A stretch of DNA of 40,304 bases from Eubacterium sp. (GTDB lineage Bacteria; Bacillota; Clostridia; Lachnospirales; Lachnospiraceae). The stretch covers positions 1 through 40,304 of the forward strand of contig JAGABX010000035.1 of NCBI GenBank assembly GCA_017614395.1. The letters are read 5' to 3'. How positions within the stretch are numbered: the stretch's first letter is position 1; every line of letters starts with the position of its first letter. Below the pieces are notes generated by a model. That model had not been told where the DNA came from. It saw nothing but the letters and a program-made list of their open reading frames with translations, and did not search any database. Made by a program: the position numbers and the translations under genes. Positions 19,706 through 40,304 of this stretch are shown in pieces.

Positions 19706-21484
19706 CTATGCCACATCCCCTTCGCCGTTGTCAAACTGGCTCATGTACAGATCTGCGTAGAAGCCTTTCTTCGCCATGAGCTCGTCATGCGTTCCGGTCT
19801 CAAGCACATCGCCGTCCTTGAGCACCAGGATGACATCCGCGTTTTTGATCGTGGAGAGACGATGCGCGATAACGAAGCTGGTCCTCCCCTCCATCAGCGT
19901 ATCGAGAGCCTTCTGGATGAGCAACTCGGTACGTGTATCGACCGATGATGTAGCCTCGTCGAGGATCAGGATCGGCGCATTTTTGATCATCGCGCGCGCG
20001 ATCGTGATGAGCTGTTTCTGTCCGGAGGAGATGTCTCCCTCCTCGCGGATCAGCGTGTCTGCGCCGTCCGGAGCCGTCCGTATAAACTCGGTCAGACCGG
20101 CATCATCAACTGTCTTTTTAAATAACTCATCGGTAACGCCTTCCTTGGAATAAATGATATTGTCCCGAATCGAAGCCTGGAACGTCCAGGTATCCTGAAG
20201 AACTATACTGATGAGATCGTGAAGCGTCTCACGAGGCATGTCGTAAATCGAGGTTCCGTTGATGCGAATGTCGCCGCTGTTCAGTTCGTAGAAACGTGTC
20301 AGCAGGTTTATGATCGTCGATTTTCCGGCACCGGTCGGCCCGACAATGGCAACCTTCTGACCCGGCTTCACATCCAATGAAAAATCATTGATGATGATAT
20401 GATCCTTGACATAGCCGAACTTGATATGGTCAAAGGAAACCTGCCCGGTTACCTTTTTCTCGTCCACGGATGTATGGCCCTCGTCGGTCATTTCTTCGTT
20501 TTCCAGCATAGTGAAGATTCGTTTCGCGCCCGCGAGTGCCGGCTGGATGTTGCCCACCGACTGCGTGACTGTGGAGACCTGATCCGAAAACATCTTGACA
20601 TATGAGATAAATGCCACAATAGTACCGACATCCGTCTGTCCCTTCATCACGAGCAGAGCGCCGACGATGCAGACAACAACGTACCCCAGGTTACTCGAGA
20701 ACGATGAAACAGGCATCAGCACCGAGGTGGCAAACTGGCTCTTCCAGGTTGAACTGTACAACTCGTCATTCAACGCCAGAAAACTCTCCGTGACCTCTCT
20801 CTCCGCGCCGAACGATTTGATGACGAGATGGCCCTTGATATCCTCGTTCACTGCTGAGTTCAGTCCTGCCAAACGGTTCTGGTTCATGGAGAACAGCGGT
20901 GAGGATTTTTTCAGGATAATTGCGGATATGGTCACTCCGACGAGGGACGCCACGATCGTAGTGATCGCGAGGATCCAGTTCATCGTAAACATCATTACAA
21001 ATGCACCTAAAATCGTACAAACAGCGACGATCATAGACGGCAGTGTATTGGCAAATGACTGTGATACCGTGTCGACGTCATTTGTCATTGTGGAGAGGAC
21101 CTCGCCCTCCGGATTGGTATCAAAATAATTCAACGGGATCTTGTTTGCTTTTTCATTGATATCACGACGCATTTTCTGCGCGGTTCGCATTGACATGACC
21201 GGAGTCAGCATCGTCTGGATGAAATTGCATAAAAAGGAACCGCCGAGTATCGCAAACGCGATCATGGCTGTGGTCCAGATCTTTTCCGCATCCATTTCAC
21301 CATTGATGCCTTCTTCAATATAGTTTGTGATGTCCGCGATAAAGCCCGGCGCAAGAACGTTCAGTATAGCACCGGTCAGCGAAAGGACGAGCACTGCGGC
21401 GAGTATTCCCCACCAGGGCTTCATATAGAGCAGGAGCCTTCCGAATGCGCCTTTTTCTTTTTTCTGATTATTCTGCTTGCTCAT
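19706..21484 (-). CDS. ABC exporter subunit with consensus catalytic site (heterodimer partner B, copy 1)
   Basis: This 592-aa half-transporter has six membrane segments in residues about 20-325 and a nucleotide-binding domain with Walker A GPTGAGKST (Lys388), Walker B ILILDEATSS (Asp509, catalytic Glu510) and H-loop IAHRLST. Its signature motif is ISSGQKQL instead of LSGGQ. That altered signature pairs with the altered Walker site of the partner encoded 1 nt upstream, the pattern of heterodimeric exporters with one strong and one weak ATP site. Its ribosome binding site lies inside the end of the partner gene, which couples translation. It is the last gene of the acyltransferase run, so its cargo may be the product of that pathway; this is inferred from position. 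Confidence 0.93.
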   Translation of the reverse strand: MSKQNNQKKEKGAFGRLLLYMKPWWGILAAVLVLSLTGAILNVLAPGFIADITNYIEEGINGEMDAEKIWTTAMIAFAILGGSFLCNFIQTMLTPVMSMRTAQKMRRDINEKANKIPLNYFDTNPEGEVLSTMTNDVDTVSQSFANTLPSMIVAVCTILGAFVMMFTMNWILAITTIVASLVGVTISAIILKKSSPLFSMNQNRLAGLNSAVNEDIKGHLVIKSFGAEREVTESFLALNDELYSSTWKSQFATSVLMPVSSFSSNLGYVVVCIVGALLVMKGQTDVGTIVAFISYVKMFSDQVSTVTQSVGNIQPALAGAKRIFTMLENEEMTDEGHTSVDEKKVTGQVSFDHIKFGYVKDHIIINDFSLDVKPGQKVAIVGPTGAGKSTIINLLTRFYELNSGDIRINGTSIYDMPRETLHDLISIVLQDTWTFQASIRDNIIYSKEGVTDELFKKTVDDAGLTEFIRTAPDGADTLIREEGDISSGQKQLITIARAMIKNAPILILDEATSSVDTRTELLIQKALDTLMEGRTSFVIAHRLSTIKNADVILVLKDGDVLETGTHDELMAKKGFYADLYMSQFDNGEGDVA

Positions 21485-21485
21485 A

Positions 21486-23243
21486 TCATCCCACCTCCTT
21501 TGTCAGCATCTGCGACGATGCGATTTCCTGATAGATCGGGCAATTCGCGAGCAGCTCCTCATGCGTTCCGCTGCCGACAATCTCGCCCTTGTCTAAAACG
21601 AGGATATTGTCCGCATGCATGATGCTGCCGATACGCTGGCCGACAATTATCTGGGTGGCATCCTTCGCATGGCTTCGGAGTGTTTTTCGAAGTGTCGCGT
21701 CTGTCTTGAAATCGAGTGCGGAGAAGGAATCATCAAACAGGTACATCTCCGGATCACGACAAACAGCACGTGAAATTGTCAGGCGCTGGCGCTGGCCGCC
21801 GGAGAAATTGGAACCGCCCTCCTCTACTCTGGCCTCGTAGCCGCCTTCCTTTTTCTCAATGAAATCACGGGACTGGCCGATCTCGGAGGCCTTTTTGATA
21901 TCCGACAGTGTGTTCTGCAGTCCGGTTCTCTGGCCGTAGTCGATGTTTGAGTAGATCGTTCCTGAGAACAAAAAGCTTTTCTGTGGAACATAACCGAGCC
22001 GGTCGCGCAGAGCCCACAGCTTGTAATCCCGGACGTCACGTCCGTCCACCATGACAACGCCCTCTGTCGCGTCGTAGAAACGTGGGATCAGATTCATCAG
22101 CGTCGTTTTGCCCGAACCGGTTGCCCCGACAATTGCCACGGTCTGTCCGCGCTCCACTCTAAATGAAATATTTGAAAGCACGTTTTCAGGAGAACCGGGA
22201 TATCTGAACGACACATCACGAAACTCGATCGTTCCGATCTGGCCGTTCGCGCCTGTTTCAGCATGTCCGTCCTTTATTGCATTTTCCGTGTACAATACCT
22301 CGTTGATTCGCTTGATCGAAACAACCGTCCTCGGGAGAGCCGCAATGATGATGATCATCATGGCAAATGCGGAGATTGCCTGGACCGCATACGAGGAGAA
22401 CACAACCATTTCAGCAAACAGGCTCTGTTTCTCCGTTGTCTCGACCAGTTCGCGTATCATGACGCCACCGAGATAAACGATGATCAAGTTGAGCAGGTTG
22501 ATACTCAGTGTGAAGAACGGTCCGACGGAACCGATCAGACGGTTTGCCGTGATATTGTTTTTCGTAAGATCGCTGTTGACGGTCTCAAACTGGTTTTTCT
22601 GATAATCATAGCCGTTGTAGGCATGTACGACACGCATACCGGTCAGGTGCTCCTTGGTGATCCGGTTGATAGTATCCATGAGTTTTTGCACCCTGGTGGT
22701 TTTGGAAATTGAACACAGGAACAGCGTGAGCGCGATGATGGTCAGAATCACCGCGACTGCGATGGTGACCGTAAGCCATTTTCCGTTGCTGCCCATTTTC
22801 ATAACGGCAATCACGACGGTGATCGGCGCCTGAATCAGGATCTGCAGACCCATTCCGGAGAAGTTCTGGATCTGGGCTATATCGTTTGTGCATCGTGTGA
22901 TCAGGCTCGACGGAGAGAGCGTGTTCATGTCCGCCAGGTCGAATGAAATAATTTTCTGGAAGGTTTCCGCGCGCATACGCTGAATTACCTTGGAGGTCAG
23001 CAGCGCGAGGCAGAGACCTCCGAGCACAGCACACGCAACAGACCCGAGTGTGCAGAGCAGCATCAGGATCGCCGGCATTACGAGATCGCCGATATCTCCA
23101 TTTCCTGCCTGCATGGCGTTGGTGATGCCTTGCATGAAATCAGGCAATTTCAGGGACAGGAGTACCTGACCGAAAATCAGCCCGACAAACAGCACGAAGT
23201 ATACCCACTCCTGTGCCTTCATGTAGGATAGAATCTTTTTCAT
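21486..23243 (-). CDS. ABC exporter subunit with degenerate catalytic site (heterodimer partner A, copy 1)
   Basis: This 585-aa half-transporter has a six-span membrane domain and a nucleotide-binding domain with Walker A GATGSGKTT (Lys379) and an intact signature NFSGGQRQR. Walker B reads YLFDDSFSALD, with Asp505 where the catalytic Glu should be, and the H-loop His is replaced by Gln536 (VGQRIGS). Both changes weaken ATP hydrolysis at this site, as in known asymmetric exporters. It forms the heterodimer with the gene 1 nt downstream. The start has GGAGG about 11 nt upstream. A 126-nt gap with a hairpin-forming sequence separates it from the last acyltransferase gene. Confidence 0.93.
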   Translation of the reverse strand: MKKILSYMKAQEWVYFVLFVGLIFGQVLLSLKLPDFMQGITNAMQAGNGDIGDLVMPAILMLLCTLGSVACAVLGGLCLALLTSKVIQRMRAETFQKIISFDLADMNTLSPSSLITRCTNDIAQIQNFSGMGLQILIQAPITVVIAVMKMGSNGKWLTVTIAVAVILTIIALTLFLCSISKTTRVQKLMDTINRITKEHLTGMRVVHAYNGYDYQKNQFETVNSDLTKNNITANRLIGSVGPFFTLSINLLNLIIVYLGGVMIRELVETTEKQSLFAEMVVFSSYAVQAISAFAMMIIIIAALPRTVVSIKRINEVLYTENAIKDGHAETGANGQIGTIEFRDVSFRYPGSPENVLSNISFRVERGQTVAIVGATGSGKTTLMNLIPRFYDATEGVVMVDGRDVRDYKLWALRDRLGYVPQKSFLFSGTIYSNIDYGQRTGLQNTLSDIKKASEIGQSRDFIEKKEGGYEARVEEGGSNFSGGQRQRLTISRAVCRDPEMYLFDDSFSALDFKTDATLRKTLRSHAKDATQIIVGQRIGSIMHADNILVLDKGEIVGSGTHEELLANCPIYQEIASSQMLTKEVG

Positions 23244-23270
23244 GAGTTGTTATGCCTCCTTTTTTATATT

Positions 23271-23369: not shown

Positions 23370-24596
23370 TCAGACGGTCGGAGTATCCGAATCTAAATCC
23401 ACCGGATGCGCCGCAGCATGCACGCGCGCCGGAACACCCATCTCCGTGATAACCTCCGACAGTGCCTGCAGGTATTCATCCGTCGCCTGTCCGAACTGGA
23501 GCAGGACAATGAACTCTCCGTTCAGATCCATCATGTAACAGTTCATATGCGCGTTGGTCGGCATTTCAAAATCCACGATATGCGAGGTGTTTTTGCCGAT
23601 GTCCAAACGTCCCATGTAGGTGATCAGCGCATACTGGTCCACCTGCTGCCACGCATAAGTTTTGCAGAACTCGCCCATGGTTTTTATGTAGTCCGCCTGT
23701 CGCTGGTAGTTCATTAATTCACGTATATGTGATGCGGTTTCGCTGACTTTTTCCTCCTGCACGCCCTCATAATCGGTATAGGCAAGCGCCATGGACAAAC
23801 AGTTGGAAATACAGTCCTCGTGATGCAGCGCCTGTCTCGCGCTGAGTGTGAAGGAAAAGGCAACCCCGCGTCGCTCCTCGGGATGCAGCCTGTACGCCGC
23901 CCTCGCCAGCGCAACACAGAGCAATGATGACGGATTGCCGCCGCGCGATTTGCTTAATTTTATAAACTCCTCCGAGGAAAAACGGATCGATCCCATCGGA
24001 ATGGTGCCGTCCTCCATCTGAGCGATTTTTTCATCGGTAAAATACTCGCTGTTGAACGGGTAAGTGACGAGAGCCTGATTCTCAAAATTCTCAAAATCCG
24101 CGCCACCGAGTACACAATAATAATCATCGAGTACACGCCCCTCGCGCGTCTCCACCGATGGATTATCGTCCTCCTCACCGGTAAAAAGCGCGAGATAAAA
24201 ATACAGATAGGTGCGGAATATCATCGTCAGGCCGCCGCCGTCAACGAGAGAATGGTAGGCGCTGACGGATACCCTGTTCCCATCATAGGTCGTGCTGATC
24301 ACTCGCCCACGGGCCTCCTCGCTGCCGGGAGTGATCGGGTTTTTGCTGCGGATCGGTTTTGATGTCCTGCTGTCATCTGCATAGTATTTGATGTTTCCGT
24401 CCGCCGTACTCGGGACGCAGTCGATGATGGGGTAGACGCGTTTTGTTTTCTCCCATGCCTCCGCGAGTATCTCCGAATCGATCTCATGATCCAGCGTCGC
24501 TGTGTAGCGCAGGTGAATAGGATTGTTATTGTCCATCAGCCAGAACAGATTTTTCTCGGTGCCGAGATCCAGAACGCATGCTTTTTCACTTGCCAT
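23370..24596 (-). CDS. Condensation-like CoA-dependent acyltransferase, paralogue 1
   Basis: The 408-aa protein has the catalytic HxxxDG motif of the chloramphenicol acetyltransferase/condensation superfamily as His115-Ser-Leu-Val-Asp119-Gly in SAYHSLVDGGG. The first His of the NRPS HHxxxDG form is a Tyr here, as in stand-alone acyltransferases of the PapA or alcohol-acetyltransferase type. The N-terminal lobe carries FWLMDNNNPIH and DHEIDSEIL, and the C-terminal lobe GNPSSLLCVALA, NCLSMALAY, YMGRLDIG and MMDLNGEFIVLLQFG. It would move an acyl group from a thioester or adenylate to an alcohol or amine; the substrate is unknown. An AGAGGAG site precedes the ATG. It is the last of four paralogues and follows a leader element shared with cheX. 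Confidence 0.85.
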   Translation of the reverse strand: MASEKACVLDLGTEKNLFWLMDNNNPIHLRYTATLDHEIDSEILAEAWEKTKRVYPIIDCVPSTADGNIKYYADDSRTSKPIRSKNPITPGSEEARGRVISTTYDGNRVSVSAYHSLVDGGGLTMIFRTYLYFYLALFTGEEDDNPSVETREGRVLDDYYCVLGGADFENFENQALVTYPFNSEYFTDEKIAQMEDGTIPMGSIRFSSEEFIKLSKSRGGNPSSLLCVALARAAYRLHPEERRGVAFSFTLSARQALHHEDCISNCLSMALAYTDYEGVQEEKVSETASHIRELMNYQRQADYIKTMGEFCKTYAWQQVDQYALITYMGRLDIGKNTSHIVDFEMPTNAHMNCYMMDLNGEFIVLLQFGQATDEYLQALSEVITEMGVPARVHAAAHPVDLDSDTPTV

Positions 24597-24603: not shown

Positions 24604-24662
24604 CTCCTCTTATCTTGTATGATTACTCTAATGAAACCGTCCGGTTGCATCAGCCGTATCCC
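24604..24662 (-). promoter_or_regulatory. 59-nt conserved leader element (copy 2)
   Basis: This matches 7706-7764 before cheX without gaps at 46 of 59 positions and, like it, ends in the AGAGGAG ribosome binding site. It occupies the whole gap between acyltransferase 2 and acyltransferase 1. The CGGACGGTTTC part could pair with GAACAGTCCG (minus strand of 24668-24677) at the end of the preceding gene, a looser version of the pairing seen before cheX. Confidence 0.5.
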
Positions 24663-25897
24663 TAAATCGGACTGTTCACATACTCCAATATTCTGTCATC
24701 CCTGTCGGTAATGACCGTTTCCGGTTCGGTGTTAACCGTTGCGCTAATTCCGGCCTCCGTCAACAGATTTTTAAACTCATTCATATACTCCCTCGTCACG
24801 CGGCCGAACTGGAACATCAGGATAAACTCATCATTCATATCCGCTAAATACAGGTTGTTACAGGAGTTTGTTTCCATCCTGAAATCCGTAATATGTCCGG
24901 TCAGACTGCCGATGTCAACCGTTCCGATATAGGTGACCAGACCGAGGCGGTGGATATGATTCCAACCGTAAGTGCTCTCAAACTGCCAGAAGGTTTTTAT
25001 GTAATCATCCGTGCGCTGCATTGAGATGTCCCGTCGGATTTTCGCAGCTGTTTCAGGCATCATCGCCATCTCGTGACTGATATCTAAAATCCCCATTGAC
25101 AGGCAGTTGGAAATGTATTTCTCCATCCCAAATGTTTTCCGATCGCTGATCGTGATCGCAAGCCCGACATCCCTGCGTTCCTCCGGATGCAACCGGTAAA
25201 ACGCCTGTGCAAACCAGAGACAAAGCATCGCAGACGGATTGGCGCCGTTCGCCTTGCATAGTTTTAAAAAGTCTCCCTTATCAAATTGCAGTGCTCCGAA
25301 TATCCGCGCCCCATCATCGCCCGGACGCATCTCCTCGTCCTCGACAAATTCCCGTTTAAACGGATACAGAAAAAGCGGCTGCGGCTCGAATTCTCCGAGA
25401 TCGCCCTCACCCAGGATCCGGTAATATTCTCCTGCATCCCGGTTTTCCTCAAGCTGCACTGTCGTGACGCCATCTGTCTCGCCTGTGTATTCCGACAGAT
25501 ATGTATACAGAAGCGTCTGCATAATCTGCAACAGACCGCCGCCGTCGACCAGGGTATGGAACGCGTTCATAGTTATTTTATTTTTGTAAACCGTAAGCGT
25601 AACAACGCGATTTCCCACAACTGACGATCCCGGCATGGCGGGCCTTTCCCCGTGCATCACGGGATTCTCGCCATTGGCAGTATAGAGATAAATATCCCAG
25701 TCCACGACATCTATTATGGTATCAATGATCGGATAAACAAGCTTGGTTTTTTCCCATGCTTTTTTTATAATTTCATCATCAATTTCATGATCCAGCGTCG
25801 CTACATATCTGATATGTATGTCGTTGTTACGGTCCATCAGCCAGAACATATTTTTGACGGTTCCGAAATGAAAATATTCTTCTTTTTTATTGATCAA
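24662..25897 (-). CDS. Condensation-like CoA-dependent acyltransferase, paralogue 2
   Basis: The 411-aa protein is a close paralogue of the next gene, sharing the starts of both lobes (KNMFWLMDRNNDIH; DHEIDDEIIKKAWEKTK). The active-site motif is His114-Thr-Leu-Val-Asp118-Gly in NAFHTLVDGGG. The C-terminal lobe has GANPSAMLCLWFA, NCLSMGIL, TYIGTVDIGS and DEFILMFQFG. I choose a TTG start at 25897 because GGAGG lies 6 nt before it and the protein then begins MINKKEEYFHFGTVKN, in line with paralogue 1. A frame reading back to 25918 has no proper site. A 21-codon frame just upstream ends in a TTGA overlap with this start. Confidence 0.83.
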   Translation of the reverse strand: MINKKEEYFHFGTVKNMFWLMDRNNDIHIRYVATLDHEIDDEIIKKAWEKTKLVYPIIDTIIDVVDWDIYLYTANGENPVMHGERPAMPGSSVVGNRVVTLTVYKNKITMNAFHTLVDGGGLLQIMQTLLYTYLSEYTGETDGVTTVQLEENRDAGEYYRILGEGDLGEFEPQPLFLYPFKREFVEDEEMRPGDDGARIFGALQFDKGDFLKLCKANGANPSAMLCLWFAQAFYRLHPEERRDVGLAITISDRKTFGMEKYISNCLSMGILDISHEMAMMPETAAKIRRDISMQRTDDYIKTFWQFESTYGWNHIHRLGLVTYIGTVDIGSLTGHITDFRMETNSCNNLYLADMNDEFILMFQFGRVTREYMNEFKNLLTEAGISATVNTEPETVITDRDDRILEYVNSPI

Positions 25898-25959
25898 ATC
25901 AGTCCTCCAAACACACAATCAGCCACAGTTTTTTTCACTGCTATTTCATTGCTACTCAT
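25894..25959 (-). CDS. Possible 21-codon upstream frame coupled to acyltransferase 2
   Basis: An ATG at 25959 preceded by GGGGTG opens a 21-codon frame (MSSNEIAVKKTV...) whose TGA overlaps the TTG start of acyltransferase 2 as TTGA. The ribosome binding site of the acyltransferase lies inside it. This is the layout of translational coupling from a leader peptide to a weak start codon. It is short, so it may be a chance frame. Confidence 0.35.
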   Translation of the reverse strand: MSSNEIAVKKTVADCVFGGLI

Positions 25960-26015: not shown

Positions 26016-27242
26016 CTAAATCTGCGGTTTTTCGGCATCCGGCAAAACAATTTCCGGCTCGGTCAAAACCTCGGCCGTCAGCCCGTAACCGGTAAGCACC
26101 TCGCGGAGCCCCTGCATGTATTTTCCGGTCGCGCGCCCGAACTGGAACGAGATAACAAACTCTCCGTTCAGATCCATCATGTACAGGCTGCTCGTCGCGT
26201 CGTCCGTCATCCTGAATGAGCGGACATGTGAGGTCTGCGAACCGACATTGAATTTTCCCATGTAGGTAACAAACGCATAACGTTTCGCCAATATCCAGTC
26301 ATAGGTGTCATAAAAAGCAGTCAGCGTTTTGATGTAATCCTCACTCTGCTGGTAACTGATCACCGAGCGGATGTTTTTGATCGCTTTGCTGATCTGTTCA
26401 TCATCGGTAATATCATCATGACGAACCGGTATCAGTAGATTGGCCGAGCAATTTGCTATTGATTCCGGCGCGTTGAAAAACTTCCGTACACTCATAGTCA
26501 GAACAAACGCAATATCTCCGGTTCTGTCCGGATACAGATCATATATAACCTTCGCTAATAAATATACCAGCATTGAGGATGGGTTTGCGCCGTGCTTTTT
26601 ACAAAAATCCATGAACGGCTGCACCGGTGTTTTGAGGCAGGCGCGTTCGATTCGCCCCTCATCGTCAGGCGCGAGCTCCTCATCAATAAACATGCCGTCC
26701 CGTTTCGCATAACTCACGAGCGGAACCGGTGTAAAATCCCTCATGTTAACAGATGACATAGGCACGAAATACTCCTCGGGTTTTCGTCCCGTCCGTGTCA
26801 TGACAAGTGGCTCATCGTCCCGGACTCCGGTGTAGAGCGACAGATAGAAATACAGCATCGTTGAAAAAATACTGCTGATCCCGCCGCCGTCCACGATGGA
26901 ATGGAATGCGTTCATGGTGACTCTGTTTTTATCATAGGTCAGGGAAAAAGTCCTTCCGGCCGTGAGTTCCCCTCCCGGGATTACAGACACAGCGCTATGG
27001 ATTGGTGGATTCTTCAGGTCATCCTCATAAAACACCACATCCCCGCCAACCCGCTCAGGCACCCAGTCAATAAGCGGATAGACCTCTTTGGTTTTGTTCC
27101 ACGCCTGTGCTAACAACTCCGGATCGATCTCATGATCCAGCTCGACGGAGAACTGGTTATGATATGGATTAAAATGGTCATGGTCCCAGAAGGGTGACAT
27201 GGAACCGCCATTAAATACTTCTCGTTTATCCGATTTATTCAT
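26016..27242 (-). CDS. Condensation-like CoA-dependent acyltransferase, paralogue 3
   Basis: The 408-aa protein starts at the ATG at 27242, behind GGAGG; the longer frame to 27263 has no such site. The catalytic motif is His114-Ser-Ile-Val-Asp118-Gly in NAFHSIVDGGG. The first residues (EVFNGGSMSPFWDHD) resemble paralogue 4 more than 1 and 2, while the core (DHEIDPELLAQAWNKTK; GANPSSMLVYLLA; TYMGKFNVGSQTSH; MMDLNGEFVISFQFG) follows the common pattern. All superfamily motifs are intact. It lies between paralogues 4 and 2 in one transcript. The substrate is unknown. Confidence 0.85.
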   Translation of the reverse strand: MNKSDKREVFNGGSMSPFWDHDHFNPYHNQFSVELDHEIDPELLAQAWNKTKEVYPLIDWVPERVGGDVVFYEDDLKNPPIHSAVSVIPGGELTAGRTFSLTYDKNRVTMNAFHSIVDGGGISSIFSTMLYFYLSLYTGVRDDEPLVMTRTGRKPEEYFVPMSSVNMRDFTPVPLVSYAKRDGMFIDEELAPDDEGRIERACLKTPVQPFMDFCKKHGANPSSMLVYLLAKVIYDLYPDRTGDIAFVLTMSVRKFFNAPESIANCSANLLIPVRHDDITDDEQISKAIKNIRSVISYQQSEDYIKTLTAFYDTYDWILAKRYAFVTYMGKFNVGSQTSHVRSFRMTDDATSSLYMMDLNGEFVISFQFGRATGKYMQGLREVLTGYGLTAEVLTEPEIVLPDAEKPQI

Positions 27243-31019: not shown

Positions 31020-32855
31020 TTAATCCTGTTTCTGTCCGTGATACCGGATACACAGCATTGTCATGTCATCGAACTGCTCCGCTCCGGCCGTGAATTTATT
31101 AACATCCGCGGTCACCATGTCACATATCTGTTCCACAGGCATGCCCGCCGTCGACAGTATGGCTTTCAACCTGTCATTCCCATACTGCTCGCCGTCATCG
31201 CCCTGCGCTTCCGTGATTCCGTCCGTATACAAAAACAAAACATCTCCGGACTGCAGCCGCACAGTATGCTCCACGTATTTCGGATTATTAAACATGGCCA
31301 TCAGGATGTTCGGTTTCAGCATTACCGGTTCCGCCTTGTCGTCATGAATCAGCATCGGCGGATTATGGCCGGCATTGACCGCGCGAACCACTCCCGTTTT
31401 CAGGTCAAGATAACCGAGCCAGACGGTCACGAACATCTGGGCTTCATTTCCTTCAAAAAGCTTGTTATTTGCCTGCCTCATAACCTCAGCCGGAGGCAGC
31501 CCGCTCTCCGCCAGATCCTTGATCGTCGTTTTGGCTGTCATCATAAACATGGCACCCGGGATACTTTTTCCCGAAACATCCGCAATGAGAAATACAAGAG
31601 TATCAGAATCCGGCATGAAAAAGTCATAAAAATCGCCGCCTACTTCCTTGGCCGCATTCATGCTCGCGAACAGGTCAAACTCATCTCGTTCGGGGAACGG
31701 CGGGAATATCGAGGGGAGTGATGCGCTCTGGATCGATTCCGCCACCGACAGATCCTCCTCATACCGCGCTGCCTCCTCCGCGATGAAATCCTGCAGACGA
31801 TCCACCGTCCGGTTGATGCCGTCGGAGAGAGAGTCAAGCTCATAGGTACTTTTTATGTCTATTCGTTTGTCGAGATCTCCATCCGTGATGTCTAACAGCG
31901 TATTGTTCATCCGCACGATATTTGACACGATAAGTTTCCGTATCAGAATGATGAGCGTGATAAACAGGATAACAAACAGACCAATCTCGAGAATGAGAAA
32001 TCCGCCGATCATGCTCAGGAAAAATGCCTCGGACTCGCTGACCGGATATACGCCGGCAATATAATAGTCCTCGATCCGGTTGACCTCCACATAGGAGGGA
32101 ACGCCGAATACCGTCTCCTGCATTTTTTCAAAAGCATAGTCCCTACCCAGCTCAATGTTCAGACCTGACTCGCTGACAGACTGTGCGGCATGCTCATTTT
32201 TGTAGCTGCACATAACCAAGCCGTCGTCCCCGTCAATCATGAGCAGGTAACCGGATTCCCCAACGCGCCGATAATTGACCGTATACGCGCCGGACATGAT
32301 CAGCGATGAATCATATCGGTCTTTTGCCATACCGAACAGCAGATAGCCACTTCCGTCAGAAAACGGCTGTGCCGAGTACAGCATCTGTCGTTTTCCGCCG
32401 GCTGAGACCTCTGTCATCTCGGATTGCATCGGTTTTCCATTCTCTGTATCCAAAACGTCTGCCAGCACCTTGTCATCATGACAGTCATAGCCGATCAGAT
32501 CCTTGTTGGAGGATGCCAGGACAACCCAGTTCGAATCGAGGATGCTAACCTCCGTGCCGCTTTCTACATTCTGTAAACCGGCGGAGACCTCATCGGGATT
32601 CTCCATTTTGGCTGTATTGTTAAAGGTGGACGCATAATTGTTGACGTAGATCGCGACCTCCAGCTTGATCATGTTCTCTATGGAATCCGTTACATCCTCG
32701 ACATCGCGATGGAGCACTCCGAGCGTCTGCTGCTTTACACGTCCGGAGATGCTGATATACGACACCACGGCAAACAGAGCGCACGCGATACCCATGATCA
32801 CGGCGATCCATATTGTTATGACGAGAGATATTTTATGCTTTCGTTTTGTTTTCAT
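31020..32855 (-). CDS. Membrane sensor with HAMP and SpoIIE/RsbU-type PP2C phosphatase
   Basis: The 611-aa protein has a first span at 10-34, an extracytoplasmic Cache-like sensor region to about 280, a second span at about 280-310, a HAMP linker and a PP2C phosphatase at about 395-605. Metal-binding acidic residues are seen in GGDFYDFF (Asp408), ADVSGKSIPGAMFM, TDGITEAQGDDGEQYG and FDDMTMLCIRYHG. It should remove phosphate from a STAS serine on receiving an outside signal, which releases or activates the STAS partner. The free STAS gene follows 62 nt later and a STAS-ligase gene precedes it by 72 nt. AGAGGA precedes the ATG. Unlike the other phosphatase of the cluster, it has no HATPase domain. 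Confidence 0.92.
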   Translation of the reverse strand: MKTKRKHKISLVITIWIAVIMGIACALFAVVSYISISGRVKQQTLGVLHRDVEDVTDSIENMIKLEVAIYVNNYASTFNNTAKMENPDEVSAGLQNVESGTEVSILDSNWVVLASSNKDLIGYDCHDDKVLADVLDTENGKPMQSEMTEVSAGGKRQMLYSAQPFSDGSGYLLFGMAKDRYDSSLIMSGAYTVNYRRVGESGYLLMIDGDDGLVMCSYKNEHAAQSVSESGLNIELGRDYAFEKMQETVFGVPSYVEVNRIEDYYIAGVYPVSESEAFFLSMIGGFLILEIGLFVILFITLIILIRKLIVSNIVRMNNTLLDITDGDLDKRIDIKSTYELDSLSDGINRTVDRLQDFIAEEAARYEEDLSVAESIQSASLPSIFPPFPERDEFDLFASMNAAKEVGGDFYDFFMPDSDTLVFLIADVSGKSIPGAMFMMTAKTTIKDLAESGLPPAEVMRQANNKLFEGNEAQMFVTVWLGYLDLKTGVVRAVNAGHNPPMLIHDDKAEPVMLKPNILMAMFNNPKYVEHTVRLQSGDVLFLYTDGITEAQGDDGEQYGNDRLKAILSTAGMPVEQICDMVTADVNKFTAGAEQFDDMTMLCIRYHGQKQD

Positions 32856-32927: not shown

Positions 32928-34799
32928 CTATCCCTGCGCCAATCGGTTTATCACATCTTCTTTCAATTTAACACCGTCAATCTTTCCGGTGCCTAGCATC
33001 GGAAATTCGTCATACAAGAAAAAGTGTGACGGAATCTTAAATTTAGCGAGCGATTTCGCAAGCTCCGACTTCACCTCATCCTCGTTCCATTCCGCACCAT
33101 CTTTCAGCTTAATGCAGGCACCGACCTCCTCGCCGAAAAAGTCACTCGGCACGCCGAGTACCTTGACATTGTCTATGATCGAAAGTTCCGAAATTGCCGC
33201 CTCTACTTCACCGGGCATGATGTTCTCACCACCACGGATAATAAGCTCCTTAAGACGGCCGGACAGATGCAGATAGCCGTCAGTATCCATGAATCCGAGA
33301 TCACCGGTATGCAACCACCCCTCCGTATCGATCGACTGCATATCCAACGCCACCTTGTAATAACCGGTCATCAGGTTGAATCCCTGCACCTGTACCTCAC
33401 CCGAGGTGCCAACCGGACATTCCGCTCCGGTCTCCGGATTGCATATGCGGATCTGGATATTTTCAACCGGCTTGCCGACGGTCTGCAACACATGTTCCTC
33501 GGTGTCATCATATTTCGTGATGGATACCGGCGCCATCTCTGACAGACCATATGAGGCTAGGAAATGGTCGTTCGGGAGATTATCCTTGAACATTTTTATC
33601 TGTGCCTCCGAGGCTGCGGCACCGGAAATAATAGTGCATCGTATGGAAGCAAGTTTCTCCTTTGAGAAACCCTTGTTGTTCATCATTGCGATCAGCATCG
33701 TCGGAACCGAATGGAAGATCGTGCATTTCTCACGGTCGATGAGCTCGATCAGCGTGTCTGTACGCAAATCTCTCGGAATAAATATGGTCGATCCGGCGAT
33801 CGCATTTGCAAACAGCCCCGCAACCAAACCGAATATATGGAACAATGGCAGGATCAGGCATGTCCGATCCGTATCAACCAGTGTCTGATCCTTGTAGTTT
33901 ATCTCAGCCGCATTCAGTACGTTATAAGCGGAGAGCAGCACGCCCTTGGGATTTCCGGTCGAACCCGATGTGAATATCATCGCGCAGGGATCATCCTCCC
34001 TGACGGTAAATCCGAATTTGTCCTTGATCGCCTCGTACTCGCCCCGGCGCTCACGTATATCCTGCCGGTCGTTGCGGATGGATATGAATTCCTGCAGAGG
34101 CGATCCGGCAGCCTTTAATTCGGCCAGATATGCCTCCTCGTCCTTCATCTCCGGCATCTGCCCGTAGCACAGATGCGTGATATCACCGATTTCAGCCACA
34201 CGCGCAATCTCTGATGCCCGCATGTTAAAATTCAGGAGCTGCGCCATCGCACCGAGTTTTTGTATCGCGAAAAAGGTCAGCACCCAATTCACGGAGTTCG
34301 CGCCGCAGATAGCCACATGTGTGCCCTTTTTCACGCCCTTGGCCTCGAGGCCGTTCGCGATTATCTGTGAATAGATCTCCACGTCCGACCATGTATATGA
34401 GCCACCGATGTCCGCTATCGCTATCGAATCCGGCGTGGTCTCGACCTTCTTTTTCAAAAAGTCCTTGAACGACAAATGCACGTAGGTGCTTACCTCGTCA
34501 TTAGTGACCTCCATCGGGATCATCATGTGAAATCCGGTCGTCTGGAAAATGTCATAGATCTCCGGCGTAACATTTATCAGGAGCATGCGATCCCCGTCAA
34601 AACGCTGGCGGCAGATCAGAAGCTCCCGCAGACCTGCAGAGGATAAATACTCAACATCCTTGAAATCCATGGTTACCTTGGGAGTAAAATCCGGAATCGC
34701 CGCGATTTTCTCACGCAACACCGGTGCCGTGCTCGTATCGATGCTGCCTGATATTTCCAGCACAAGTCCCTCAGATGATTGCTGTTCGTTAATTACCAT
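32928..34799 (-). CDS. STAS domain fused to acyl-CoA-synthetase-like adenylating enzyme (copy 1)
   Basis: The 623-aa protein has the same build as the second fusion in this cluster. Residues 1-100 are a STAS domain with DFKDVEYLSSAGLRELL and the candidate phospho-site Ser54. The rest is the ANL enzyme with MIFTSGSTG at 274-282, ASYGLSEMAP, HTGDLG, GRLKELIIRGGENIMP and Lys606 in GTGKID. All catalytic residues appear intact. AGGAGGGG lies 6 nt before the ATG. A 196-nt AT-rich gap with repeated TAAAC units precedes it, so it probably begins a transcript. The pair of fusions may differ in substrate, since the substrate-pocket regions differ; this cannot be resolved by eye. Confidence 0.92.
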   Translation of the reverse strand: MVINEQQSSEGLVLEISGSIDTSTAPVLREKIAAIPDFTPKVTMDFKDVEYLSSAGLRELLICRQRFDGDRMLLINVTPEIYDIFQTTGFHMMIPMEVTNDEVSTYVHLSFKDFLKKKVETTPDSIAIADIGGSYTWSDVEIYSQIIANGLEAKGVKKGTHVAICGANSVNWVLTFFAIQKLGAMAQLLNFNMRASEIARVAEIGDITHLCYGQMPEMKDEEAYLAELKAAGSPLQEFISIRNDRQDIRERRGEYEAIKDKFGFTVREDDPCAMIFTSGSTGNPKGVLLSAYNVLNAAEINYKDQTLVDTDRTCLILPLFHIFGLVAGLFANAIAGSTIFIPRDLRTDTLIELIDREKCTIFHSVPTMLIAMMNNKGFSKEKLASIRCTIISGAAASEAQIKMFKDNLPNDHFLASYGLSEMAPVSITKYDDTEEHVLQTVGKPVENIQIRICNPETGAECPVGTSGEVQVQGFNLMTGYYKVALDMQSIDTEGWLHTGDLGFMDTDGYLHLSGRLKELIIRGGENIMPGEVEAAISELSIIDNVKVLGVPSDFFGEEVGACIKLKDGAEWNEDEVKSELAKSLAKFKIPSHFFLYDEFPMLGTGKIDGVKLKEDVINRLAQG

Positions 34800-34995: not shown

Positions 34996-37371
34996 TTATG
35001 TATTATTATCATTATGCCTGAATTCCTTTACCAGTCTCAACACATTCATTCCGTTCTCGTAGGTGTAAGTCATCTCGTCCATTTTTTCCTTTACCAGAAA
35101 AATACCGAGTCCGCCTATCCGGCGTTCCTTCGCCTCGAGGGTAATATCCGGGTCCTCCTTGTCCAACGGATTATACTTGAATCCGCTGTCATAAAATGTC
35201 AGAATGATCTTGGGAGTCGGATCACCGATAAGTTCCCTGGTGACTGTTACCGTCCCCTCTCCATCCGTATAAGCATAGGACGCAATGTTGATAAAAATCT
35301 CCTCGACCGCCATCCGGATCTGCAGCTTCACCGATTTGTCCGAGCTCGGGATATCGTCACACACAAACGCGACGACCTCATTCAGTTTTTCCGGTTCGGC
35401 GGGAATCTCCAGTTTCCGTATCGTATTATGCTTTCCGAAATATGAAAAGGAACAAATTGTGATATCGTCAAATTGTTTTGCGTTTCCCGTGTGCGTCCCG
35501 ATCGCGGAGCGCAGCTCCGTTATTGTTTCCTCAGGACCGAGGTCTCCGGCGGAATCCAGAACAGCCATCAAACCATCGTCCCCAAACCGTTCGTTGTTCT
35601 CGTTTACGGCATCGGTTACACCATCCGTATAAACTAAAATCTTTTCTCCCGGCTGCAGTACAAAATCCCGGTTCGCGTAGGGCATGTTTTTCATGACTGC
35701 GACCGGCGGCGAATGCGGATATTTGATCAGCCGGTAGGCTCCGTCCCTGTACAAAGCCGGATGCTCGTGCCCTGCGTTTACCTCGATGCCCTTCCCGGTT
35801 GACAACTCTATGATAGCCAGCCAAATGGTAATAAAAAGCTTCGCCTCGTTGTCATCACATAGAGCATTGTTAACATCATACATGATTTGCGCGGGCGTGC
35901 CGCCCTGCATGGTACGGCCATGGATGCGCGCCTTTGCCTGCATCATGAACATGGCGGCGGGTATTCCCTTGTCTGACACATCCGCGATCACGATAGCCAG
36001 ATGGTCGTCATCAATGAAAAAGAAATCGTAAAAATCTCCTCCTACCTCCCTGGCCGTATCCATGGATGCGTAAATCGCGAACTCATTCCGATCGGGAAAT
36101 GGCGGAAACGTGTTCGGCACGGAGGAATGCTGTATTGTTCTGGCCAGTGCCAGTTCCTTGTCAATCCTGCCCTCTGCGTCCCGTATATACCGTTTCAGGG
36201 ACAACACCATGATATTGATGTCATCCGACAGCATGGCAAATTCGCGATTATCGGTCACATCCATCCGGACGTCAAGTTCGCCCATGCTGATTCTCTCCAG
36301 CGAGGTGTTCATCCTCTGCAGGGGCCGTACAATTCCCTTTTTCAGCATACGATTCAGGATTATGAGCAGACTCAGAGAGAGAACAAACAGTGCAAATGTA
36401 AATCCTAACGCGGATAGGACACGCATCTTTGCCGCTTCCCACCGGGGATACAAAGCGACTGCGATCGTTTTATTGTAGGGATGGTACATCGCATAGTATT
36501 CCGTGCCATTCGGTGCATTATATTTAAATATTTCACTGAAGGAATCATCATCTGATTCCTCAGCTATTGAAGGTAAATCCAACTGCAGTTTTTCAGGGAC
36601 GTCATCACCCTCTACGCCATAATAGGTTCCATCATCCTTTGGCGCTAACATCGAATAGGTTCCGTCAGGATTCTGTTCCCTGTCCAGCACGATCATCATG
36701 CCTTCATTTCCGACCGCTACCGATTGGCAATACACTCTTGACAGCATTACCAGCTCTTCCGAAATCTGACTGGAAACAATACCGAGAACTACCATCCATC
36801 CTTTCTTCCCGACGAAGCAATCCTCGCCTATCACCTGTCCGCAATAATATATTTTATTCTCATTCTGGTATTCTTCCTGTAATTTGCAATCCCGGTAATA
36901 ATTATCTCTCTCCTCCGCATTTGACACACGTCTCAGATCGATCCGTGCTCCCCCGATATCCGATGTTTTTTTTCCGACCAGTTGTGTCACGGAGGAATGG
37001 CGAATGATTCCATCCGGCGAAACTACATGAAGTTCCCTTAAATTCAGATCTCTGACCTCATCCTGCAGATAAGCATCCACTCCGGAATAATGGTCATGTG
37101 TGTCCTTAAACTCGATAATAGCGTTCGTATTGGAATACAATGTCGAATACATGTATCCGACCGTGACATCCATGTATTGATCAATCGAGAAGAAGAGTGT
37201 TTTTTTTGTCTCGTTGTCAGTAAGATATGTGGCAAGCAGTCCTCCGAATATACCCGAAATAAACAAATAGACCAGCATAAACAAAATGATCCATTTGTTA
37301 AACAGTTTTGATATAGCCTTGGTTCTGTTTTTAATTACTTTTTTTGATTGTTTATCATCTCTCTGAGACAT
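34996..37371 (-). CDS. Membrane sensor fusing SpoIIE-type PP2C phosphatase to RsbW-like HATPase
   Basis: The 791-aa protein has a first span at 27-50, an extracytoplasmic sensor region of about 270 residues, a second span near 320-345, a HAMP linker, a PP2C domain (about 415-640) and a HATPase domain (about 650-785). The PP2C domain shows GGDFYDFF (Asp446), ADVSDKGIPAAMFM and FDDITICSF. The HATPase domain shows the RsbW/SpoIIAB N-box MAVEEIFINIASYAY (Asn695) and a GGLGIFLVKEKMD segment. One chain therefore carries both a phosphatase and a possible serine kinase for STAS proteins. Its ATG shares a base with the stop of the exporter gene upstream (TAATG), so it is translated together with it. 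It should be the main switch of the cluster. Confidence 0.92.
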   Translation of the reverse strand: MSQRDDKQSKKVIKNRTKAISKLFNKWIILFMLVYLFISGIFGGLLATYLTDNETKKTLFFSIDQYMDVTVGYMYSTLYSNTNAIIEFKDTHDHYSGVDAYLQDEVRDLNLRELHVVSPDGIIRHSSVTQLVGKKTSDIGGARIDLRRVSNAEERDNYYRDCKLQEEYQNENKIYYCGQVIGEDCFVGKKGWMVVLGIVSSQISEELVMLSRVYCQSVAVGNEGMMIVLDREQNPDGTYSMLAPKDDGTYYGVEGDDVPEKLQLDLPSIAEESDDDSFSEIFKYNAPNGTEYYAMYHPYNKTIAVALYPRWEAAKMRVLSALGFTFALFVLSLSLLIILNRMLKKGIVRPLQRMNTSLERISMGELDVRMDVTDNREFAMLSDDINIMVLSLKRYIRDAEGRIDKELALARTIQHSSVPNTFPPFPDRNEFAIYASMDTAREVGGDFYDFFFIDDDHLAIVIADVSDKGIPAAMFMMQAKARIHGRTMQGGTPAQIMYDVNNALCDDNEAKLFITIWLAIIELSTGKGIEVNAGHEHPALYRDGAYRLIKYPHSPPVAVMKNMPYANRDFVLQPGEKILVYTDGVTDAVNENNERFGDDGLMAVLDSAGDLGPEETITELRSAIGTHTGNAKQFDDITICSFSYFGKHNTIRKLEIPAEPEKLNEVVAFVCDDIPSSDKSVKLQIRMAVEEIFINIASYAYTDGEGTVTVTRELIGDPTPKIILTFYDSGFKYNPLDKEDPDITLEAKERRIGGLGIFLVKEKMDEMTYTYENGMNVLRLVKEFRHNDNNT

Positions 37372-39104
37372 TACTCACCTTCATCAAACTGGCTGTTGTA
37401 CAGCTGCGCATACAGGCCGTTGCGTTGTAACAGTTCCTCGTGTTTGCCCGTTTCTACGACATCTCCGTCCTTCATGACAAATATCACATCCGCATCCCGG
37501 ATGGTGGACAGCCTGTGCGCGATCACAAACGAGGTTCGTCCCTCGGTCAGTTTGTCGATCGCCTGTGTAATGATTTTTTCCAAACGAGTATCAATTGATG
37601 AGGTTGCCTCGTCCAGGATCAGGACCTTCGGATTCCGTATCATGGCGCGGGCTATCGTCAGGAGCTGTTTCTGTCCCGCCGACACCTCAGTCTGTTCACC
37701 GAGAATAGTGTCCAATCCGTTTGGCAGCGTATCCACGAAATGATCCAGTCCCACATCCTCAATTACCTCGCGCAGGCGTTCCTCGGTCACCCCTTTGGTG
37801 GAGTAGACGATGTTGTCACGGATGGAGCCCTCGAACGTCCATGTATCCTGCAGCACCATGCCGACATAATCATGGAGATTATCCCGGTGCAGCTTTGACA
37901 CCGGCGTTCCGTCAATCCGGATCTCACCGCCATCCAGCTCATAAAACCGCATGAGAAGATTGACCATCGTCGTTTTTCCGGCACCAGTCGGTCCGACGAT
38001 CGCCACCTTCTGACCGCTTTTTACATCAGCGGAGAAATCATGGAGGATCGGCGTGTTCGGCACATATCCGAATTTCACATGTGAAAAACCAATCTCGCCG
38101 GACACATCCTGAATGGTCTCGGTTGCTCCCGATTCGTCGATTTCGTCCTCATCCAGAATCTCGAACACGCGCCCCGCTGCCGCATAGGCCGGCTGAATCG
38201 AGCCGATTGCCGAGGCCACGTTACTGATATTGGACTGGTACATCCTGACATAGAGGATGAACGCGACAATGACCGAAATCGTAGTGCCTGCGATATTGCC
38301 CACGATCAGCGCTGCGCCGACGATGCAGACAATGATGTATCCGAGGTTGCCCACGAACGCCATGACCGGCGTCATTATGCCCGACGCTACCTGCGATTTC
38401 CACGAGCTCTCGTACATATCCTGATTTCGTTTATGGAAGTATTCCCGAACGTCGTCCTCACAGTTGAATGCCTTGACTACCAGATGGCCGGTAAAAACTT
38501 CCTCTATATGAGCGTTGATGGCGCCCAGACTCCTCTGCTGCGTCCTTGCGTAGTTGCGGCCGGCCTTAGCCACCTTTCGCGATATGGCAAAACCGCCTAT
38601 GGAAACAACCATGACGCAGAGTGCCAGAATCCAGTTGGTAATGAGCATCATGACCGTTGCGCCGATAACCGTGGTCATCGATGACAGGATGCTGGTAATA
38701 TTGCTGACGAGCGACTGGCTGACCATATCGACATCGTTGGAAACACGGCTCAGCGTGTCACCGCTTTTGTGGCTGTCAAAATACGCAATCGGCAGGCGGT
38801 TCAGCTTGGCGGAGATGTCACGCCTCATATTTTTGCACAGATCCTGAGATACGCCCGCCATCATGAACTGCTGGGCGTAGCCAAAAGCAAACACGATCAG
38901 CACTGCCCCGAAAGCTAAAACTGCATTGAAGGAGAGAGATGAGAAATCCACCTTGCTTTTCAGCCCCTCCTCGATCACGGAGGATATGGTCCGGACTATC
39001 TGTGGAATCAGCACGCTCATCAGTGAGGACACGACGCCGATAATAACCGCAAAGATCACCTTGCCACGATAGGGTTTTAACAGCCCTGCAATACGCTTGT
39101 TCAT
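37371..39104 (-). CDS. ABC exporter subunit with consensus catalytic site (heterodimer partner B, copy 2)
   Basis: The 577-aa half-transporter has a six-span membrane domain and a nucleotide-binding domain with GPTGAGKTT, VLILDEATSSID with the catalytic Glu, and IAHRLST. The signature reads EVSAGQKQL instead of LSGGQ. It is the same asymmetric type as the exporter at the other end of the cluster, and its sequence is clearly related to it. It overlaps the partner gene upstream by 4 nt (ATGA) and the phosphatase-kinase gene downstream by one base, so all three are translationally linked. The cargo is unknown. Confidence 0.93.
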   Translation of the reverse strand: MNKRIAGLLKPYRGKVIFAVIIGVVSSLMSVLIPQIVRTISSVIEEGLKSKVDFSSLSFNAVLAFGAVLIVFAFGYAQQFMMAGVSQDLCKNMRRDISAKLNRLPIAYFDSHKSGDTLSRVSNDVDMVSQSLVSNITSILSSMTTVIGATVMMLITNWILALCVMVVSIGGFAISRKVAKAGRNYARTQQRSLGAINAHIEEVFTGHLVVKAFNCEDDVREYFHKRNQDMYESSWKSQVASGIMTPVMAFVGNLGYIIVCIVGAALIVGNIAGTTISVIVAFILYVRMYQSNISNVASAIGSIQPAYAAAGRVFEILDEDEIDESGATETIQDVSGEIGFSHVKFGYVPNTPILHDFSADVKSGQKVAIVGPTGAGKTTMVNLLMRFYELDGGEIRIDGTPVSKLHRDNLHDYVGMVLQDTWTFEGSIRDNIVYSTKGVTEERLREVIEDVGLDHFVDTLPNGLDTILGEQTEVSAGQKQLLTIARAMIRNPKVLILDEATSSIDTRLEKIITQAIDKLTEGRTSFVIAHRLSTIRDADVIFVMKDGDVVETGKHEELLQRNGLYAQLYNSQFDEGE

Positions 39105-40304
39105 ACGGCTGCCCCCCTTTCCATCATCTGGGAGGAGGCAATCTCCTGATAGATAGGACAGCTCGACAACAGCTCGTCATGCTTACCGGCGCCGACTATC
39201 TGTCCCTTGTCGATCACGTAGATGCAATCCGCGCCCATTATCGTGCCGATCCGCTGCGCCACTATCAATACAGTGGCATCAGCCGCAACCTCCTTCAGCC
39301 GGTCACGGAGCATACGGTCCGTCTTGAAATCCAGCGCGGAAAACGAATCGTCAAACAAATATATTTCCGGATCGCGGCAGATGGCACGCGATATGGTCAG
39401 TCGCTGTTTCTGGCCGCCGGAGAAGTTTTTGCCGCCCTCGGCAACCTTCGCGTCATAGCCGCCTTCCTTTTTCTCGATGAATTCACGTGCCTGCCCTACC
39501 TCGGAGGCTTTTTTTATCTCCGTGAGAGTGGCCTGGAAACGCCCGTTGTCACCGTAGGCGATGTTGTCCGAAATCGTTCCGGAAAACAGCATGCTTTTTT
39601 GCGGGATGTAACCGAGCTTGTTACGGAGATCCCGCAGCTTGTAATCCCTGACATCCTTGCCGTCGACCAGAACTCGCCCCTTCGTCGCGTCATAGAAACG
39701 CGGGATCAGATTGAGGATGCTCGTCTTGCCGGAGCCCGTGGCACCGATGAAGGCAACGGTCTGTCCTTTTTTTATGGAAAGGTTTATATCCTTGAGCGCA
39801 TAGCCGCCGGCACCCGGGTATTCAAAGCTGACATTCTCAAATACGATACTGCCGTCTTTTTTATCCTCCTGCTCGTCCGCGCCGTCCTGTATTGAAATAT
39901 CGGATTTCAGCACCTCGGAGATACGGTCCCAGGAGGCCATGGCCTTGACGATGCCGATATAGATCAGCAGGAGCTGTACAAACGCCGACATAACTAACAC
40001 TGCATAGGATGAGAACGTCACCATGTCCGAAAACAACTGGAGACGATCTCCTGATGCTGCGCCGGATATGACGAACGCACCGACAAAATAGATCAGAACG
40101 TTCAACAGGTTCATCATGCTCGTCATGAACGGGGCAAACAGTCCGGTTCTCCGGTCCACGCTGCGGGATGCTTTGAACAGGGACTCGTTTACCTCACCGA
40201 AACGTTCCTCCTGGTAATCAAACGCGTTAAATGCATGTATCACACGGATGCCGGACAGGTGCTCGCGATTGACGCGGTTGACATTGTCCACCTGTTTCTG
40301 TGCC
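39101..40304 (-). CDS. ABC exporter subunit with degenerate catalytic site (partner A, copy 2; N-terminus outside window)
   Basis: The frame is open to the right window edge and shows 400 residues. The visible part starts in the membrane domain (VNREHLSGIRVIHAFNAFDY), so about 180 residues are missing; a GTG at 40291 is not the true start. The nucleotide-binding domain has GATGSGKTS, an intact signature NFSGGQKQR, YLFDDSFSALD with Asp in place of the catalytic Glu, and AQRIGT with Gln in place of the H-loop His. These are the same changes as in the other A partner, which argues for one duplication of a heterodimer gene pair. Confidence 0.92.
   Translation of the reverse strand, partial: AQKQVDNVNRVNREHLSGIRVIHAFNAFDYQEERFGEVNESLFKASRSVDRRTGLFAPFMTSMMNLLNVLIYFVGAFVISGAASGDRLQLFSDMVTFSSYAVLVMSAFVQLLLIYIGIVKAMASWDRISEVLKSDISIQDGADEQEDKKDGSIVFENVSFEYPGAGGYALKDINLSIKKGQTVAFIGATGSGKTSILNLIPRFYDATKGRVLVDGKDVRDYKLRDLRNKLGYIPQKSMLFSGTISDNIAYGDNGRFQATLTEIKKASEVGQAREFIEKKEGGYDAKVAEGGKNFSGGQKQRLTISRAICRDPEIYLFDDSFSALDFKTDRMLRDRLKEVAADATVLIVAQRIGTIMGADCIYVIDKGQIVGAGKHDELLSSCPIYQEIASSQMMERGAAV

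Follow-up and report, generated by a model that had tools for sequence, protein, structure and literature searches.

The 40,304-nucleotide stretch analyzed in this study (the window) is contig C15 in its full length, part of a draft genome of 2.6 Mb (94.7% complete) from a Eubacterium sp. belonging to the Lachnospiraceae. Its minus strand hosts, at positions 19706-40291, a gene cluster combining the components of a partner switch (SpoIIE phosphatases, an RsbW-like HATPase, and STAS domains) with acyl-activating enzymes, condensation-like acyltransferases, and ABC exporters. Two of the STAS domains are part of adenylating enzymes of the ANL type (STAS-ANL fusions). We propose that this cluster is probably a biosynthesis-and-export system, the acyl-activating step of which is directly controlled by partner switching. 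This proposal builds on the gene content, the catalytic motifs, the acceptor serine of the STAS domains, and the recurrence of the neighborhood in other genomes.

Gene content of the cluster

Genes were named from Pfam matches, with the exception of the four condensation-like proteins, which were named via profile-profile comparison. In the following, C1 denotes a contig of the same genome, and the acyltransferases P0008-P0011 carry the separate labels C1-C4; L-numbers stand for fetched loci and G-numbers for genomes, G000 being the genome investigated here. The assignment to modules A and B is explained with the gene neighborhoods below.

39101..40291, minus strand: ABC exporter subunit 1, module A, degenerate (P0001); ABC_membrane and ABC_tran; truncated at the contig end, with its start on contig C1 (L100:8469-9376)
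37371..39104, minus strand: ABC exporter subunit 2, module A (P0002); ABC_membrane and ABC_tran
34996..37371, minus strand: membrane sensor with HAMP, SpoIIE phosphatase, and RsbW-like HATPase_c_2 domains (P0003); Pfam
32928..34799, minus strand: STAS-ANL 1 (P0004); STAS, AMP-binding, and AMP-binding_C; YLSSAGLR, A10 lysine
31020..32855, minus strand: membrane sensor with HAMP and SpoIIE phosphatase domains (P0005); Pfam
30652..30957, minus strand: free STAS protein (P0006); Pfam STAS only
28709..30577, minus strand: STAS-ANL 2 (P0007); STAS, AMP-binding, and AMP-binding_C
27333..28658, minus strand: condensation-like acyltransferase C1 (P0008); HSLVDE; profile-profile match
26016..27263, minus strand: condensation-like acyltransferase C2 (P0009); HSIVDG; profile-profile match
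24662..25918, minus strand: condensation-like acyltransferase C3 (P0010); HTLVDG; profile-profile match
23370..24596, minus strand: condensation-like acyltransferase C4 (P0011); HSLVDG; profile-profile match
21486..23243, minus strand: ABC exporter subunit 3, module B, degenerate (P0012); ABC_membrane and ABC_tran
19706..21484, minus strand: ABC exporter subunit 4, module B (P0013); ABC_membrane and ABC_tran
18893..19648, minus strand: 251-amino-acid (aa) hydrophobic protein directly downstream; homologue in the L046 STAS-ANL cluster, membership uncertain
39951..40304, minus strand: dovetail overlap with the end of contig C1, counterpart L100:9023-9376

All genes that an earlier, sequence-only reading of this DNA had named on the minus strand were recovered, including the two STAS domains placed directly on adenylating enzymes, and the cluster proved to be larger than claimed there. 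Both membrane sensors (Pfam SpoIIE scores of 145 and 171 bits) contain GGDFYDF, IADVS, and FDD, which we take to be the motifs of a SpoIIE-type (PPM) phosphatase with its catalytic aspartates. The RsbW-like HATPase_c_2 domain of P0003 (52.8 bits), which has the N box, aligns with the free HATPases of L046, L051, and L071. The acceptor-serine motif reads YLSSAGLR in P0004 and YVSSAGLR in P0006 as well as P0007, and the fusions carry the ANL features in form of the AMP-binding and C-terminal domains, the A3, A5, A7, and A8 motifs, and the A10 lysine. The predicted asymmetry of the two ABC exporters is also apparent, with LFDDSFSALD in P0001 and P0012 vs LILDEATSS in P0002 and P0013. As stated by the same reading for this run, it lacks a sigma factor: all seven matches to sigma-70 region 2 in the genome lie outside C15 and contig C1. 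A carrier protein, suggested as a target for a search of the extended locus, did not emerge, with no PP-binding match in the 13 window proteins or in five of the eight contig C1 proteins scanned, small open frames being outside this search.

The run continues past position 40304, as contig C1 (9376 bp) carries the upstream genes. Its last 354 bp match the last 354 bp of the window as a dovetail (96.0% identity on DNA level, 113 of 113 aa identical), and the break between both contigs is presumably of the kind expected for an assembly split by strain variation. Toward the window, contig C1 first encodes two glycosyltransferases of family 2, followed by a STAS-APH fusion between two APH-like kinases, then by a pair of condensation-like proteins, and finally by the beginning of ABC subunit 1. 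Start/stop overlaps, previously described as several, exist at two positions (39101-39104 and 37371), in addition to a 1-bp gap at 21485; the remaining gaps of the minus-strand run span 50-196 bp. Regarding a possible single transcript, no terminator-like site was found in any minus-strand gap of 20305-40304, while within genes such sites occur at about the frequency of shuffles or somewhat above (24 vs 17, both strands); the 196-bp AT-rich gap before P0004 (34800-34995) may hold a promoter.

Association of the partner switch with the fused enzyme

SpoIIE was detected within the fetched locus in 11 of 49 fusion loci, compared with 1.13 expected under random placement from the SpoIIE count of each genome and the locus length (exact P = 8e-9; the SpoIIE-type sensor of L029, cut by the contig end, was left uncounted). 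The enrichment persisted after removal of a near-duplicate and three SpoIIE-rich genomes, with 7 of 45 loci vs 0.93 expected (P = 3e-5). STAS genes generally tend to lie near SpoIIE, so that the enrichment indicates a fused STAS behaving as an ordinary partner-switch STAS does.

The L071 genome (titled Solobacterium) contains one SpoIIE and, searched with PF01740 and PF13466, one STAS domain, namely the fused one. Among its RsbW-like HATPases one is strong (90 bits) and four others reach 21-26 bits; SpoIIE, the strong HATPase, and the STAS-ANL fusion are all encoded on one 13-kb contig. Because the sole recognizable STAS domain of this genome is enzyme-fused, a switch acting on the enzyme itself gains support. 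Within a PF01740 search of 61 genomes (G000 included), a single match, with an E-value fitting the fused domain, was also obtained for G369 (L063) and G371 (L065). For L087, the single HATPase_c_2 match of the genome is located immediately upstream of the fusion, the fused STAS being marginal at 21 bits.

Distribution and phylogeny of STAS-ANL fusions

A set of 299 family genomes, G000 included, was sampled with P0007 as query at a threshold of E 1e-90. Eight of them matched, four with an alignment spanning STAS and ligase (G000, G168, G041, and G233) and four with the ligase part alone; among 38 other genomes of the same genus, no match was found at this threshold. A scan of a collection of one genome per species with two short peptide patterns led to 65 loci, 54 of which encode full-length STAS-ANL fusions. 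Record titles of loci L029-L089 (61 in total) name an animal or gut site in 28 cases, each of them a herbivore or the rumen, and none in the others. According to these titles, the fusion loci belong to Bacillota, Synergistota, Riflebacteria, and Abditibacteriota, and incomplete fusion genes were also found in Fibrobacter (L041) and Gastranaerophilales (L084). L081 (Synergistales) comes from a contig of 258 kb; for several others, situated on short contigs, misbinning is possible.

Together with the two fusions of the window, this resulted in 56 full-length sequences, all of which retain the A10 lysine and 47 of which retain the acceptor serine. In the tree of these sequences, P0004 falls together with L029-L034 and L046, and P0007 with L042, L045, L047, L051, and L083. 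Two Synergistota rows are placed among Bacillota rows in this unrooted tree, which suggests horizontal transfer between phyla, several of the cross-phylum cases being found on short contigs of metagenome bins. A tblastn search of P0004 against 72,556 plasmid records returned 45 records at E 1e-60; in the ten matches listed, the STAS part is mostly or wholly missing, all of them starting at query residue 90 or later.

Gene neighborhoods and two-module layout

The window looks like two tandem modules, each comprising one sensor phosphatase, one STAS-ANL fusion, and a pair of ABC exporter genes. Module A is best read as the contig C1 genes, ABC1, ABC2, SpoIIE-HATPase, and STAS-ANL1, and module B as SpoIIE, STAS, STAS-ANL2, acyltransferases C1-C4, ABC3, and ABC4. 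Relatives of P0004 adjoin ABC2-like genes (64-90% identical; L030, L031, and L034) and SpoIIE (L029, L030, and L031). Relatives of P0007 adjoin condensation-like proteins resembling the acyltransferases C1-C3 (37% and 58% in L045, 35% in L051). L034, from another genome, shows a gene set and order similar to the joined contigs C1 and C15: STAS-APH, condensation-like, APH plus condensation-like in one frame, ABC1, ABC2, condensation-like, and STAS-ANL; in contrast to the window, it has no SpoIIE between ABC2 and STAS-ANL. L051 and L083 represent a near replicate of one arrangement, with SpoIIE, HATPase, STAS-ANL, two condensation-like genes, and an ABC pair.

Across the 54 loci, an acyltransferase gene directly abuts the fusion (<=60 bp, same strand) in 20 cases, five of them condensation-like and 15 encoding membrane proteins that group with members matching PF01757 or PF07786; since many of the rows are closely related, the independent events are fewer. 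The recurrence of STAS-ANL fusions with SpoIIE/HATPase, acyltransferases, and exporters elsewhere indicates that this combination did not arise by accident in a single genome. The co-occurrence comparison proposed by the sequence-only reading, made on genome level, does not single out the condensation-like family (see below).

Regarding possible acceptors, GlgX-like (glycogen-debranching) genes are located in or beside the STAS-ANL clusters of five loci (L030, L040, L042, L051, and L083) and family-2 glycosyltransferase-like genes in L033, L052, and contig C1, which hints at a glycan. Directly upstream of the fusion in L035 lies a nonribosomal peptide synthetase (NRPS) module of A-T-C type with PP-binding, and L040 contains a similar 973-aa gene. 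The Selenomonadales loci L038, L070, L072, and L075, none of which gave a SpoIIE match, have the fusion beside genes of the citrate synthase group and of an AbrB-type membrane protein (as named by Pfam for the copies in L038). To the left of the cluster, window positions 13129-18930 encode a GH9 cellulase, a Big_2 protein, an S41 peptidase-like protein, and tRNA-Lys; the S41 gene overlaps that of the 251-aa hydrophobic protein.

Condensation-like acyltransferase family

Single-sequence searches of P0008-P0011 gave no Pfam match even at E 10, and phmmer with P0009 gave no match in PDB. A profile of 24 family members compared with four NRPS condensation domains reached an hhalign probability of 94.4 (E 8.8e-8) with the HxxxD columns aligned, and the assignment to the condensation superfamily follows from this comparison. 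The H and D of the motif are invariant in all 24 profile rows. The sequence-only reading had described these four proteins as condensation-like, which holds; the full HxxxDG signature is kept in three of them, P0008 deviating with HSLVDE. Few members reach any Pfam model, Pfam Condensation being reached by 2 of 24 (best E 0.046). Ten PDB matches were obtained with the profile, all at E 0.12 or worse; NRPS-type chains were among them, such as tyrocidine synthase 2 and, below threshold at E 1.3, polyketide synthase associated protein 5, as was poly(A) polymerase.

Profile search of G000 detected seven members, of which the window holds four, contig C1 two, and C118 one. At least one copy is present in 170 of the 299 family genomes, often as an open frame of ~430 or ~610 aa. 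Genome-level co-occurrence of these proteins with the fusion (4 of 4 fusion genomes vs 166 of 295 others) was rejected as proof of a system; the evidence rests on the physical neighborhood.

Switch domains on further effectors

STAS-APH fusions were found on contigs C1, C128, and C79 of G000 and also in L032 and L034. The counterpart, a MATE transporter with C-terminal HATPase, occurs twice in L042 (34.8 and 29.9 bits), with candidates in C128 and L097 at 25.6 and 26.1 bits, below the cut-off of 27.4; these domains keep E-E-x-x-x-N, with an altered nucleotide lid. On C128 (L101:7870-11332), a STAS-APH gene (7870-9051), a cytidylyltransferase-like gene (165 aa), and a MATE-HATPase gene (9563-11332) are consecutive. 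In L042:2507-17612, two MATE-HATPase fusions flank a free STAS gene downstream of STAS-ANL and three condensation-like genes; L042:2507-2779 resembles the Nif11-type leader of a ribosomally synthesized and post-translationally modified peptide (24.1 bits, below the cut-off of 32.3). A second switch-rich locus of G000 on C79 (L010:9950 to L011:9931) contains STAS-APH, a free STAS, an SDF symporter, SpoIIE, MatE, an NRPS, and another SpoIIE. Its NRPS has two C, two A, and two T domains as well as a reductase-type domain, and the first 150 aa of the symporter appear HATPase-like by eye, with no Pfam match.

As STAS-APH and MATE-HATPase fusions both exist and stand in a row on C128, a more general architecture across several phyla of herbivore-gut bacteria can tentatively be considered, which we regard as a doubtful but conceivable extension. 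STAS domains would sit on biosynthetic enzymes (ANL and choline-kinase-like APH) and RsbW-like HATPases on exporters (MATE, possibly the SDF symporter), phosphorylation deciding on the docking of enzyme and exporter and thereby coupling synthesis and export of a secreted acylated glycan or peptide without a change in transcription.

Proposed mechanism and alternative explanations

For the cluster in the window, the direction of the switch, its action on catalysis, and the acceptor and product are what we infer. The membrane sensors P0003 and P0005 would read an outside signal and set STAS phosphorylation, the HATPase part of P0003 phosphorylating the acceptor serine in YxSSAGLR and the SpoIIE domains dephosphorylating it. 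Of the STAS domains, three are on enzymes (two STAS-ANL and one STAS-APH on contig C1) and one is free. The ANL enzymes are predicted to provide an activated acyl group in form of an acyl-CoA or acyl-adenylate, which is the likelier donor since the cluster proteins scanned included no carrier protein. Six condensation-like proteins could move acyl groups onto an acceptor, perhaps one made by the glycosyltransferases together with the kinase-like enzymes, and release of the product would fall to the heterodimeric ABC exporters.

Several observations weigh against this proposal. No SpoIIE match was obtained in 38 of the 49 loci (many contigs being short), the fusion gene directly abuts a SpoIIE or HATPase gene in 3 of 54, and G371 (L065) has the fusion with no SpoIIE match in the genome. 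Condensation-like members were found in 27 and not found in 23 of 50 fusion-bearing genomes and are therefore not an obligate partner; their genome-level co-occurrence says little because the family is common. Furthermore, nine of the 56 fusions have lost the acceptor serine with catalytic motifs kept, so that the fusion works without it in some lineages; perhaps these were released from the switch. The nine fusions concerned occupy three places in the tree (L055; L059, L073, L076, and L086; L060, L064, L067, and L074), with Leu, Ala, or Asn instead of the serine. In favor of the proposal, the serine is kept in 17 of 17 fusions from loci with SpoIIE or HATPase vs 30 of 39 others (Fisher P = 0.045 on manually entered counts, kinship ignored), a test that is weak because of the three places.

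The dispensable serine would also fit STAS as a docking or assembly module tying the ligase to the membrane sensor, an exporter, or other enzymes, with phosphorylation leaving catalysis unchanged. RsbW-like HATPase-MATE fusions beside STAS or STAS-fusion genes (L042 and C128) and MlaB, a STAS protein acting on an ABC transporter according to the consulted sections of PMC7367683, point in the same direction. The intact SpoIIE and HATPase motifs and the local SpoIIE enrichment argue for reversible phosphorylation as part of the function, and we consider pure docking unlikely. Alternatively, a sigma factor elsewhere may be the final output, the free STAS carrying the signal and the enzyme-fused STAS domains only competing for the kinase or feeding back. 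Two of the seven sigma-70 region 2 matches of G000 lie in open frames of 233 and 259 aa, within the usual size of SigB/SigF (230-290 aa); an extracytoplasmic function (ECF)-size sigma gene (12973-13449) is found among the STAS/SpoIIE genes of L046; and the L071 contig carries a sigma-70 region 2 match (G377:C38:1110-1298, in L094). The latter two also count against an enzyme as the switch's output, and such ECF-size sigma genes near STAS-ANL clusters are a possible second output. In the L071 genome, however, a free STAS is absent, and the six matches to sigma region 2 are in frames of 395, 515, 169, 182, 167, and 208 aa, none of 230-290 aa. Neither C15 nor contig C1 carries a sigma match, and we rate this alternative as improbable. 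Least convincing is ordinary fatty-acid uptake, in which the fusions are FadD-like ligases feeding lipid synthesis next to unrelated neighbors. Their best NCBIfam models are indeed long-chain-fatty-acid-CoA ligases (350-376 bits, below the cut-off of 476), but the abutting acyltransferases in 20 of 54 loci, the nearby exporters and SpoIIE, and the patchy distribution with 0 of 38 other genomes of the genus make this very improbable.

Taken as a whole, the interpretation of the sequence-only reading, in which a STAS phosphorylation state set from outside gates acyl activation, acyl transfer, and export, is partly supported.

Relation to known systems and significance

Partner switching is mostly described as freeing sigma factors, and the enzyme targets in the literature examined are diguanylate cyclases, bound in trans. 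Mycobacterial FadD/FAAL and PapA loci likewise unite acyl activation, a condensation-superfamily acyltransferase, and export in one locus; they differ by polyketide synthases and MmpL exporters and, to our knowledge, by a ligase without STAS. Similarly, we know of no SpoIIE/HATPase pair for MlaB-MlaF. In this system, a STAS protein acts on an ABC transporter, MlaB being a separate protein and not part of an enzyme in the sections considered of PMC7367683. In SiaABCD of Pseudomonas aeruginosa, as presented in the consulted part of PMC8457831, a phosphatase and a kinase set the phosphorylation of a STAS-like protein, the unphosphorylated form of which binds and activates an enzyme. The likeness lies in an enzyme instead of a sigma factor as output; the SiaABCD regulator, a DUF1987 protein, is separate from its target, a diguanylate cyclase, whereas here a PF01740 STAS is located inside the adenylating enzyme. 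The top NCBIfam name of both SpoIIE proteins is SiaA at 60 and 64 bits, below the cut-off of 700, and no DUF1987 SiaC or diguanylate cyclase SiaD domain was found among the 13 cluster proteins scanned. HsbA-HsbD and BgrV-BgrR share the control of an enzyme by STAS phosphorylation state, theirs acting in trans on diguanylate cyclases (same part of PMC8457831). SypA/SypE, BtrV, RbaV, and HmpV exemplify partner switches directed at something else than a known sigma factor; their STAS proteins are free, the targets mostly unknown, and no enzyme fusion is described in the part of PMC8256260 considered. Among the titles and abstract starts listed in our search of open-access literature, with subscription papers and preprints outside its scope, no report of a STAS-adenylating enzyme fusion was found.

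If the proposal is true, a STAS domain built into an acyl-activating enzyme would give a gut bacterium transcription-free on/off control of a secreted product by a signal. A minimal set of three proteins for such a switch would be available in the L071 genome, where a single SpoIIE and a single strong RsbW-like kinase accompany the one fused STAS, and the clusters would mark unexplored acylated products of the herbivore-gut community.

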